From Halomonas alimentaria (GTDB taxonomy: Bacteria > Pseudomonadota > Gammaproteobacteria > Pseudomonadales > Halomonadaceae): DNA of 64,000 bases. The stretch lies in contig NZ_WUTT01000001.1 of NCBI RefSeq assembly GCF_009902005.1, positions 38,762 through 102,761 of the forward strand, read 5' to 3'. The notes beneath the pieces were generated by a model, which worked only from the letters and a program-made list of their open reading frames with translations, did not search any database and had not been told where the DNA came from. Position numbers and translations under genes: made by a program. Positions 1-56,394 of this stretch are shown here, piece after piece (position 1 is the stretch's first letter; every line of letters begins with the position of its first letter).

Positions 1-1612
<1,612 letters not shown>

Positions 1613-1632
1613 AAGATCATAAGTGCTTGAAG

Positions 1633-1708
<76 letters not shown>

Positions 1709-16535: not shown

Positions 16536-16650
16536 GGTCGATCCTGGGACGCTTCCCTGGAGGAGCCGCATCGGCGGTATCGCTCAAATGGTACCGAATA
16601 GGTCCTGATTTGCGCAAGGCGCCGGCTGCCAGGGCCATCGCAGATGGCGG

Positions 16651-16702
16651 CACCGTTCAAGGCTTCCCCGGTGGCTTTCGCTATCGAAGCATAGCTAACT
16701 GT
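16651..16702. repeat. flank-only remnant of the dispersed palindromic element (copy D)
   Basis: CACCGTTCAAGGCTTCCCCGG followed directly by TGGCTTTCGCTAT...GCATAGCTAACTGT. These two blocks match the left and right flanks of copy B (46994-47134) while the ~95-bp palindromic core between them is missing. It lies between the divergent CDF and aceK genes. Confidence 0.55.
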
Positions 16703-16796
16703 GATTGGCCTGGGGTGGCTGCCACCATGGTCGGCTCGTCGTGGTCGCGAGTCCTGTTCATGCTGTAGGCTCGCCCGATGCCCTCCGGAGCCGATC

Positions 16797-34099: not shown

Positions 34100-34232
34100 G
34101 GCGGGTCTCCTTGGTGGGGTGTGGCATCCAGCCAACGTAAGACGCTGGACGGGCGTCCGGGTTCGCCACAAGATACCCTGAACGCCTGCAAGGTCAACCA
34201 CTGACACGGTGTGCCCGATGGCATGAGGCTTA

Positions 34233-34332
34233 CCCGGCGACAGGCCTTCGAGGGGGCGCTGTGAACCCCTCCCTGGGCGCTACCGACGCCATCCCTGGCG
34301 TAGGCCCCCCTCTTCGACCTGTCCCCGGCGCC
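34233..34332. repeat. dispersed palindromic element, copy A
   Basis: ~100-bp imperfect palindrome between the divergent M48 and ATPase genes. Outer arms (CCGGCGACAGGCC...ACCTGTCCCCGG), inner arms (GAGGGGGCG...GCCCCCCTC), and a central inverted repeat ACGCCA/TGGCGT. Same architecture as copies B and C. Confidence 0.9.
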
Positions 34333-34377
34333 TCATGCGGTGTGTGCGCCGCCATCGACATGGAGAAGGAGAGGAAC

Positions 34378-35244
34378 ATGGATCCCGAGCTGACGCGTCG
34401 CCTGCTGCATCTGCTGGATCACGTCGAGCACTGGCTGCCCCCGGCCCCGGTGGAGGTGGACTGGTCGCGGGACGTGGCCGCCCTGTGGCAGCGCCACGCC
34501 CTGGGTGGGCGCCTGCTGCCGGTGCCACCGCGCGACGCCCTGAGCCTGGATGACCTGCTGGGCATCGAGCGCCAGAAGCTGGCGCTGGTCGACAACACCC
34601 GGGCCTTCCTGCAGGGCCTGCCGGCCAACCACGCCCTGCTGTGGGGCTCTCGGGGCAGCGGCAAGTCGTCGCTGATCCGCGCCCTGCTCAACAGCCTGGC
34701 CAGTGAGGGGCTGCGCTTGGTGCAGGTGGATCGCCACGACCTCGCCAGCCTGCCGATGCTGGTAGAGCAGCTGCGCCACCACGGTCAGCGCTTCGTCGTC
34801 TACTGCGACGACCTCTCCTTCGAGGGCCACGACGATGCCTACAAGGCGCTGAAGAGCGTGCTCGACGGCGCCCTGACCGGCCCGCCGCCCAACGTGCTGC
34901 TCTACGCCACCTCCAACCGCCGCCACCTGCTGCCGGAGTCGATGAACGACAACGAGGGCTCGCGGCTGGTGGGTGATGAACTCCATCACGGCGATGCCGT
35001 GGAGGAGAAGATCTCGCTCTCCGACCGTTTCGGGCTATGGCTGGGTTTCCACCCCTTCAACCAGGACGTCTACCTGGAGGCGTGCTGCCACTGGGTCACC
35101 CAACTGGGGCGCCGCGAGGACTGGAACGCCGAGGCGCGCGCCGAGGCGATCCGCTTCGCCACCCTGCGCGGCGGGCGCAGCGGTCGCGGCGCCTGGCAGT
35201 TCGCCACCCAGTGGGTGGGCCGCCGGCGCCTGCACGGGCGCTAG
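34378..35244 (+). CDS. AAA-type ATPase (DUF815 family)
   Basis: 288-residue P-loop ATPase of the DUF815 group. Walker A is GSRGSGKS near residue 92-99 and Walker B is VVYCDDLSF near 137-145; LPESMNDN and the C-terminal LFGLWLGFHPFNQ/YL segment are family-typical. No function is established. The ATG at 34378 has AGGAGAGGAAC upstream; an in-frame extension to 34261 would read through the palindromic element and is rejected. Confidence 0.87.
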   Translation: MDPELTRRLLHLLDHVEHWLPPAPVEVDWSRDVAALWQRHALGGRLLPVPPRDALSLDDLLGIERQKLALVDNTRAFLQGLPANHALLWGSRGSGKSSLIRALLNSLASEGLRLVQVDRHDLASLPMLVEQLRHHGQRFVVYCDDLSFEGHDDAYKALKSVLDGALTGPPPNVLLYATSNRRHLLPESMNDNEGSRLVGDELHHGDAVEEKISLSDRFGLWLGFHPFNQDVYLEACCHWVTQLGRREDWNAEARAEAIRFATLRGGRSGRGAWQFATQWVGRRRLHGR

Positions 35245-46954: not shown

Positions 46955-46993
46955 CCTTTTGGAGGGTTGCCTCAGGGCAATCGCAGGTGAAGT

Positions 46994-47134
46994 ACCGCTC
47001 AAGGCTTTCCCGGCGACAGGCCTGCGAGGGGGCGCTGTGAACCCGTCCCTGGGCGCTACCGATGCCATCCCTGGCATAGGACCCCCTCTGCGGCCTGTCC
47101 CCGACGCCTTTCGCTATTGCCGCATGGCTAACTG
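46994..47134. repeat. dispersed palindromic element, copy B with flanks
   Basis: Core 47009-47108 (about 100 bp) between cysE and iscR. Arms GGCGACAGGCC / GGCCTGTCCCC and GAGGGGG / CCCCCTC pair, with a central ATGCCA / TGGCAT inverted repeat. The flanks (ACCGCTCAAGGCTTT on the left, CCTTTCGCTATTG...GCTAACTGT on the right) recur at copy D, so the whole element may be ~140 bp. The rest of the 301-bp iscR-cysE gap holds the iscR promoter and nothing else I can support. Confidence 0.9.
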
Positions 47135-47154
47135 TTTATAGCCCTTGGGTTGCC

Positions 47155-55129: not shown

Positions 55130-56277
55130 GTGACCTGCCGCTGGTCGACCCCGACCTGGCGCTGCTGAGCGAGGGGCGGCACCTCATCGATGTGCGCGCT
55201 CCCGTGGAGTTCGCCCAGGGGGCGCTGCCCGGGGCGGTGAACCTGCCGCTGATGGATAACGAGGAGCGCCGCCTGGTCGGCATCGAGTACAAGCAGCGCG
55301 GCCAGGCCGCGGCGATCGCCCTGGGCGAGCGTCTGGTCAGTGGCGAGGTCAAGGCGGCGCGGGTGGCGGCCTGGATGGCGGAGCTCGAACGTTACCCCGA
55401 TGCCATCGTCTACTGCTTCCGCGGTGGGCTGCGTTCGCAGATCGCCCAGCAGTGGATCCGCGAGGCGGGCATCACCCGGCCGCGTATCCGCGGCGGCTGG
55501 AAGGCGATGCGCCAGGCGCTCTGCGCACGCATCGATGCCGCCGCCGAGCAGCCGCTGCTGGTGGTGGGCGGGCTCACCGGCTGTGCCAAGACTGATCTCG
55601 TGCTGGCCCTGGACAATGGCCTGGACCTGGAGGGGTGTGCCCGTCACAAGGGCTCCGCCTTCGGCCGCCACCCGCTGCAGGCCCCCGGCCAGATCGACTT
55701 CGAGCACGCCATGGGCCTGCGCCTGCTGGAGTTGCCGGGCCCCGTGGTAGTGGAGGACGAGTCACGCCATATCGGCGGCGCCAACCTGCCCCAGGCCTTC
55801 TGGGAGGCGATGCAGCGCGCCCCGCGACTGCGCGTGGAGATGCCCCTGGACTGGCGCCTGGCACAGATCCATCGTGACTATATCGAGGAGCTGTGGGCGG
55901 TCTATCGTCGGCAGTTCGGCGAGTGGCTGGGCTGGGCCCTGATGCGCAAGCAGCTGGAGGAGTCCCTGGCCAAGCTGCGCAAGCGCCTGGGCAGCGCACG
56001 CCTGGCCCGGCTGCAGCGGCTCCAGGCGCTGGCCTTTCGCGAGCATGAGCGCGGCAACCCCCAGGCCCATGAGGCGTGGCTGGCGCCGCTGCTGACCGAG
56101 TACTACGACCCCATGTATCGCCACCAGCTGGAGAAGCGCGCCCCGGGCCACTTCCTCCACGTGGGCGACTGGGAGAGCTGCCTGACGGTGGCCCGGGAGT
56201 GGTCGAATGAACAGAAGGCAAGGTTGAAAGTGATGTGTGGTCACTCTGTGGCTGAGACCGGCATCGCTCGGGGCTGA
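55126..56277 (+). CDS. selU: tRNA 2-selenouridine synthase
   Basis: Replaces sulfur by selenium in mnm5s2U34 of tRNAs for Lys, Glu and Gln. The N-terminal rhodanese domain (about 1-130) carries the active-site Cys in VYCFRGGLRSQ near residue 93; a P-loop follows in GLTGCAKTDLV near 148, then EGCARHKGSAFG. Length is 383 residues. Also named mnmH or ybbB. It is translationally coupled to selD (ATGA). Confidence 0.95.
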   Translation: MSDLPLVDPDLALLSEGRHLIDVRAPVEFAQGALPGAVNLPLMDNEERRLVGIEYKQRGQAAAIALGERLVSGEVKAARVAAWMAELERYPDAIVYCFRGGLRSQIAQQWIREAGITRPRIRGGWKAMRQALCARIDAAAEQPLLVVGGLTGCAKTDLVLALDNGLDLEGCARHKGSAFGRHPLQAPGQIDFEHAMGLRLLELPGPVVVEDESRHIGGANLPQAFWEAMQRAPRLRVEMPLDWRLAQIHRDYIEELWAVYRRQFGEWLGWALMRKQLEESLAKLRKRLGSARLARLQRLQALAFREHERGNPQAHEAWLAPLLTEYYDPMYRHQLEKRAPGHFLHVGDWESCLTVAREWSNEQKARLKVMCGHSVAETGIARG

Positions 56278-56378
56278 CCCGGCAACAAGCCTGCGAGGAG
56301 GCGCTGTGAATACGTCCCTGTACGCTACCTCGGCCATCCCTGGTCCTCGGACCTCCTCTTCGGCTTGTTCCCGGCGCC
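56278..56378. repeat. dispersed palindromic element, copy C
   Basis: 101 bp in the convergent gap between selU and the amidotransferase-like gene. Compared with copies A and B both arms change together: ACAAGCC / GGCTTGT instead of ACAGGCC / GGCCTGT, and GAGGAGG / CCTCCTC instead of GAGGGGG / CCCCCTC. Base pairing is kept. Confidence 0.9.
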
Positions 56379-56394
56379 CTCGCTAATCGCAGGG

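Follow-up and report, generated by a model that had tools for sequence, protein, structure and literature searches.

The window analysed here, a stretch of 64,000 nucleotides from Halomonas alimentaria, carries three copies (A, B and C) of a palindromic element. Copy A lies between divergent genes for an M48 peptidase and a DUF815 protein, copy B between tandem genes for a serine acetyltransferase-type protein and an Rrf2 regulator, and copy C between convergent genes for a rhodanese-domain protein and a GATase. The DUF815 frame as called starts inside copy A; an ATG at about 34378 was taken instead. A preliminary description had located the three copies, pointed out their differing contexts and quoted four base changes in one arm that are matched by changes in the other; the positions, the contexts and all four paired changes were found in the sequence. 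The unit is slightly longer than first given (34221-34338, 46997-47114 and 56266-56384) and is best read on the minus strand. The features are as follows.

16630-16712, no strand assigned: core-less derivative with TIR-like ends and outer arms, hairpin core absent (right end by eye).
34221-34338, minus strand: copy A (core and outer arms), covariance model match G000:C1:72982-73099 minus, 136.8 bits; between divergent genes.
34283-34304, minus strand: copy A hairpin 1, hexaloop AGGGAU at 34291-34296.
34256-34280, minus strand: copy A hairpin 2 with 3' bulge UUCACAG, hexaloop AGGGAG at 34269-34274.
46997-47114, minus strand: copy B (core and outer arms), covariance model match G000:C1:85758-85875 minus, 139 bits; sense to both neighbours.
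47059-47080, minus strand: copy B hairpin 1, hexaloop AGGGAU at 47067-47072.
47032-47056, minus strand: copy B hairpin 2, hexaloop AGGGAC at 47045-47050.
46973-47146, minus strand: copy B, whole MITE, with a TIR at 46973-46986 and a decayed TIR ending at about 47146 (by eye).
46964-46971, no strand assigned: likely target-site duplication of copy B, left (GGGTTGCC), 8-bp direct repeat.
47147-47154, no strand assigned: likely target-site duplication of copy B, right (GGGTTGCC), 8-bp direct repeat.
56266-56384, minus strand: copy C (core and outer arms), covariance model match G000:C1:95027-95144 minus, 115.8 bits; between convergent genes.
56328-56350, minus strand: copy C hairpin 1, hexaloop AGGGAU at 56336-56341.
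56301-56325, minus strand: copy C hairpin 2, stem UAC/GUA covaried from CCC/GGG, hexaloop AGGGAC at 56314-56319.

A second core-less derivative, similar and 82 bp long, was seen at locus L006 (2245-2326); judging from these derivatives, the core may be lost cleanly. A plain terminator was rejected, as the contexts vary and no conserved T run was seen by eye downstream of the aligned copies. At the start of the window (75-1708) the gene order is unusual, with a tRNA gene (1635-1708, minus) 22 nt 5' of the 16S rRNA gene (75-1612, minus).

Genome-wide collection of copies revealed a family far beyond chance. A covariance model built from 28 copies found 64 full copies in the genome of the window (E ≤ 2e-13) rather than three, and 7 further matches up to E 0.01 were short, weak or on the opposite strand; blastn gave at least 40 copies in the same genome (40 of the 40 candidates scored, out of 92). 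The model matched 24 of 25 genomes of the genus, this one included, 77 of 121 genomes in the bacterial family, spread over 15 of 24 genera (no more than 30 candidates were scored in each genome), and, from other families of the order, 3 of 13 genomes. Among the 80 matches listed, records with the exact core belonged to Halomonas, Billgrantia and Onishia. Length variants of 133-134 nt made up 20 of 233 copies (e.g. L008, L010 and L011); in the aligned examples the extra 15-16 nt are confined to one arm, and they form a separate subfamily. A stem-blind pattern for the core of hairpin 2 was found in 46 of 369 sampled Gammaproteobacteria genomes, a count that genomes with other loops escape because the pattern includes A-N-G-G-A. 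The highest number was 474 matches in one 5.1-Mb genome, and the reversed pattern gave 1 match among those listed for the class sample. Neither this reach of the core far beyond Halomonas nor the conservation of its loops had figured in the preliminary description.

On the minus strand, the unit of about 118 nt forms a long stem that is capped by two hairpins. Hairpin 2 consists of GCG/CGC, the 3' bulge UUCACAG, a 3-bp stem (CCC/GGG or UAC/GUA) and a hexaloop. Covariation was assessed in an alignment (A4) of 130 non-orthologous copies, one per ortholog group (148 groups), which excludes copies with extra inserts and includes one badly pairing row (L185). The 39-pair structure was paired in 94.0% of cells, compared with 35.8-46.3% in a control in which the partners were slid by 1-3 columns. 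Double changes occurred at 29 of the 39 pairs and in 445 cells, against 124 (sd 16) in shuffles, which bears out the paired arm changes first seen in three copies. On the loop strand, G-U exceeded A-C by 75 to 23 without the two outermost pairs and by 103 to 39 with them, a difference that shrinks to 27 to 18 when each column and type is counted once. The same tendency was seen in arms of other families, which are unrelated: among 52 copies whose arms have 15 or more Watson-Crick pairs, 39 G-U stood against 16 A-C (p = 0.003), with 60 other mismatches, and this excess suggests that the loop strand is the one that folds. Among 80 distinct copies outside Halomonadaceae, some of them fetched with a loop-containing pattern, the 3-bp stem was paired in 76 and the hairpin-2 loop fitted in 77.

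The loops were nearly invariant. In hairpin 2 of the A4 alignment, the fixed positions of ANGGAN were A in 130, G in 130, G in 129 and A in 130 of 130 copies, both N positions varied, and the closing pair was C-G in 130 of 130 copies in each hairpin. We recounted the loops in 118 copies, excluding L116-L223, which had been fetched with a pattern that contained the loops, and dropping 7 copies that could not be parsed; of the 111 copies left, 110 had ANGGAN as the loop of hairpin 2 and 109 as that of hairpin 1, and the two loops were 22 nt apart in all of them. With a loop-blind pattern, A-N-G-G-A occurred in 1041 of 1129 matches (reversed control, 17), summed over 18 genomes, all of which had already been matched, and with G027 and G029 excluded. 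Passages of PMC7652899 give ANGGAN as the RsmE hexaloop and RUACARGGAUGU as the CsrA SELEX consensus, and report that CsrA bridges sites 10-63 nt apart, best above 18. The loops of the element match the RsmE/CsrA consensus quoted there, and their 22-nt spacing lies within that bridging range. By eye, the frequent hairpin 2 GUACAGGGAUGU agrees with 12 of the 12 SELEX positions in those passages and its variant CUACAGGGAUGU with 11 of 12. Since both loops are ANGGAN, the N positions vary and the spacing allows bridging, we read them as a candidate CsrA/RsmA site.

Several observations count against this reading. Outside Halomonadaceae, the loop of hairpin 1 is often not six nucleotides long, with GGA in the loop in 60 of 80 copies under a best-hairpin rule; the outer stem is long and very stable, unlike the short hairpins favoured in SELEX in the same passages of PMC7652899; and the unpaired GGUAG and UUCACAGCG are conserved, which CsrA does not explain. 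The narrow G-U margin by distinct column and type, and the 60 other mismatches in the arms of other families, weigh on the same side. The gene csrA is common in Gammaproteobacteria, so that finding it discriminates little: 26 of the 28 genomes with the element have it, and the remaining two are 85% and 88% complete.

The position of the copies relative to genes, called with a home-made hexamer model, was also biased. For 58 non-overlapping copies in the genome of the window, 33 were tandem sense and 7 tandem antisense, with 13 convergent and 5 divergent; 6 of 64 copies overlapped a called gene, including copy A through the over-long start of its neighbour. With one copy per ortholog group (n = 130), 71 were sense, 28 antisense, 20 convergent and 11 divergent. 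The bias was weaker outside the genome of the window (169 copies without de-duplication: 72 sense, ++, against 48 antisense, --, and 11 +- against 16 -+) and absent from G029 (++9, --12, -+6, +-1), where many copies stand in inverted pairs, and this too counts against the CsrA reading. Such pairs in G029 (L242, L279, L287, L288, L289, L290) are 60-116 bp apart, each copy having its own arm sequence, and inverted pairs also occur in G027. Copies with a co-directional upstream gene lie at a median of 31 nt after its end. The suggestion that the repeat is an RNA element is supported by the covariation, by G-U over A-C on one strand and by the sense-strand bias.

The element also bears the marks of mobility. 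Full-length copies (27) were 158-189 bp long, with 14-bp TIRs like CAGGGCTATCGCAG. Target duplications of 10 bp were identical at 8 or more of 10 positions in 18 of these 27 copies, two of which are orthologs of a single insertion (L215 and L152), and at 10 of 10 in 9 of 27. Across 233 copies, flanking direct repeats of at least 10 bp were found at 14, against 2.0 expected. ISAs1-family transposases were found in 22 of 121 Halomonadaceae genomes. At 13 ISAs1 loci, both ends were identical to the TIR at 11-13 of 14 positions in 4 and one side in 1, and the remaining 8 had different ends or none detected. Two TIR-ended loci, L336 and L352, showed 10/10 duplications (flanks by eye). In the genome of the window, the longest ISAs1 match is divided between two frames. 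Loci examined from other families had no match to the Halomonas TIR at up to 1 mismatch. The proposed MITE-like nature is borne out by these TIRs, by the duplications and by the like ends of some ISAs1-family transposons. Its alternative, a REP-like repeat in the strict, RAYT-associated sense, found no support: the genome of the window has 3 PF01797 (Y1-transposase) matches, and no element copy was found within about 1.5 kb of any of them. GTAG, the tetranucleotide expected at the foot of such REP hairpins, stands there in 130 of 130 copies of A4, and CGAG, CAAG and others are seen by eye in other families. Locus L032 has a Y1-transposase gene near a different short repeat of the TGTGGGAGC type (by eye), which is perhaps a true REP of this genome.

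Taken together, these palindromes are best explained as a mobile RNA element, a MITE, with a paired CsrA site (probability roughly 0.58). Its status as a mobile structured element of RNA type is very likely; binding by CsrA, judged from the loops, is likely, and a regulatory effect would have nearly an even chance. In Halomonadaceae, ISAs1-family transposases probably spread it: they would act on the TIR CAGGGCTATCGCAG and give the 10-bp target duplication. As the majority of copies lie downstream of a gene in the same direction, the conserved strand, if transcribed, would be part of an mRNA 3'UTR or intercistronic region. The RNA would then fold into a long stem bearing at its tip the two ANGGAN hairpins 22 nt apart, and the hexaloops could serve as one bridged site for a CsrA/RsmA dimer. 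CsrA tethered in this way to the transcript may alter how stable its upstream portion is or how well the following gene is translated, and large numbers of copies could jointly draw on the CsrA pool. We extend this only tentatively, with slightly less confidence than in a regulatory effect of the element itself, to the proposal that mobile RNA elements of gamma-proteobacteria insert paired CsrA/RsmA sites into mRNA 3'UTRs, rewiring and buffering the Csr network, with the core set between unrelated ends in different lineages and with stems that renew their sequence and stay complementary.

The paired changes themselves had been ascribed to selection for the folded form or to joint copying of the two arms. 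Copies were taken as orthologous when both their flanks were similar; in the six largest groups, such copies stand out from surroundings that align poorly. Between the two most distant members, at least one double compensatory change was found in 27 of 39 groups; in total, 120 changes were double and paired, 45 gave a wobble, 48 were broken and 5 were double and unpaired. The nearest relative was an ortholog for 60.7 of 115 copies (1.8 by chance), with about half nearest to a copy elsewhere, indicating that copies are not as a rule replaced wholesale by others. The arms therefore change together in situ, beyond whole-copy transfer. Template switching between the arms (quasipalindrome correction) is compatible with this and with any of the other readings: it would keep drifting arms complementary without selection. 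The excess of double over single changes at orthologous sites (120 against 48 broken and 45 wobble) fits it, as do the arms of other families, which are near perfect yet copy-specific: 53 of 80 copies outside Halomonadaceae have an outer stem of at least 20 pairs, none being found when arms from different copies are combined, and the 24 copies of G029 have a core identity of 0.85 and an arm identity of 0.33. The asymmetry of G-U and A-C (39 against 16) would be unexpected if correction treats both DNA strands alike, and we consider unselected pairing rather unlikely.

The other readings concern what the loops are for. A purely selfish or structural MITE, in which palindrome and loops serve DNA mobility or a DNA-binding protein instead of an RNA regulator, accords with the TIRs, target duplications and ISAs1 partners, with the inverted pairs in G027 and G029, and with the conservation of GGUAG and UUCACAGCG, which have no clear pairing role. 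It sits poorly with a core common to lineages without the Halomonas TIR, including, by eye, the Yersinia repeat RU-2 as its source excerpt gives it, with the G-U and sense-strand biases, and with variation that falls at the two N of ANGGAN; we judge it unlikely. A generic hairpin at mRNA 3' ends, acting as a stabiliser, an attenuator or an RNase III substrate in the way suggested for YPAL and ERIC, would need no specific loop partner. The place of the copies shortly after gene ends and their very stable fold agree with this, but such a hairpin has no need for two loops fixed at A-N-G-G-A-N while the stems vary, which makes it quite unlikely. Finally, the GGA loops may be read by an RNA-binding protein or RNA other than CsrA, in line with which GGUAG and the bulge are conserved about as strongly as the loops. 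Because both loops fit the CsrA/RsmA consensus, with C-G closing in 130 of 130 copies each and a spacing within the bridging range, this is distinctly improbable.

If the CsrA reading is true, CsrA targets do not arise gene by gene alone: transposition also brings them in, by the tens to hundreds, and a large class of sites is missing from the CsrA target lists and sponge models of many gamma-proteobacteria. A single widespread element would also link the Yersinia YPAL repeats with Rfam Ysr224, and the persistence of bacterial palindromic repeats would become testable via one protein and one loop mutation.

CsrB/RsmZ-type sponge RNAs and the TwoAYGGAY RNA carry GGA in hairpin loops, a feature they share with the element, which differs from them in being dispersed and mobile. 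Neither the window element nor any of 18 other loci scored above threshold with an Rfam family; RsmY reached 10.6 bits (E 2.8) on the minus strand of copy A, which is chance level, and the TwoAYGGAY model had no match at E ≤ 10 in the two stretches scanned (window 34100-34460 and L316 1400-1600). ISAs1 insertion sequences have ends like CAGGGCWATCGCAY on both sides at 4 of 13 Halomonadaceae loci; unlike the non-autonomous element, they carry a transposase and lack the hairpin core, and their other copies have other ends. The TAACTGA repeats of PMC4679880, for which CsrA was called unlikely in the authors' passage, and two CsrA-related Alcanivorax sRNAs (PMC9788540) are, as described in those passages, not this element. 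Among the open-licence passages searched, De Gregorio 2006 apart, we found no CsrA link to such repeats. REP/BIME and ERIC (the latter likened by description) are dispersed intergenic palindromes that form inverted pairs in some genomes, as the element does; it differs from REP/BIME in having no copies beside the Y1-transposase matches of its own genome.

The closest relative is YPAL, reportedly first described by De Gregorio 2006. In the part of PMC2759123 (Delihas 2007, with its Table 1b) used here, RU-2 (= YPAL) of Y. pestis is 168 nt long, similar in length to the element, and has the same core (AGCC-UAC/GUA-UUUAC-GGCG) with the loops AAGGAU and AUGGAU. Other genomes supplied the hairpin-2 pattern AGCSNNNANGGANNNNTTYACRGCG, which this RU-2 sequence matches exactly, and both hairpins are present in the RU-2 fold. 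Its ends lack the Halomonas TIR CAGGGCTATCGCAG (by eye), so that the core is shared and the ends differ. YPAL has target duplications of 3-26 bp at targets at or next to dyad symmetry, has empty and filled sites and is 'co-translated' with upstream genes, according to passages of PMC2229807; the duplication of the Halomonas element is 10 bp. The repeat is named for Yersinia and Erwinia in these passages of PMC2759123 and PMC2229807, which do not mention CsrA.

Rfam RF02770 (Ysr224), a reported Yersinia sRNA, is modelled on the strand opposite the conserved loops, which counts against the CsrA reading. A 58-nt stretch of its consensus, reverse-complemented, is identical at 57 of 58 positions to the RU-2 core in the excerpt above. 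The Ysr224 model gave no match above its gathering score in 15 genomes and none at E ≤ 0.001 in the genome of the window; matches at E ≤ 0.001 were found in 12 of the 15. Ysr224 is listed among the most present sRNAs in a passage of PMC9029176, and such genome-wide sRNA counts may in fact be counts of a dispersed repeat.
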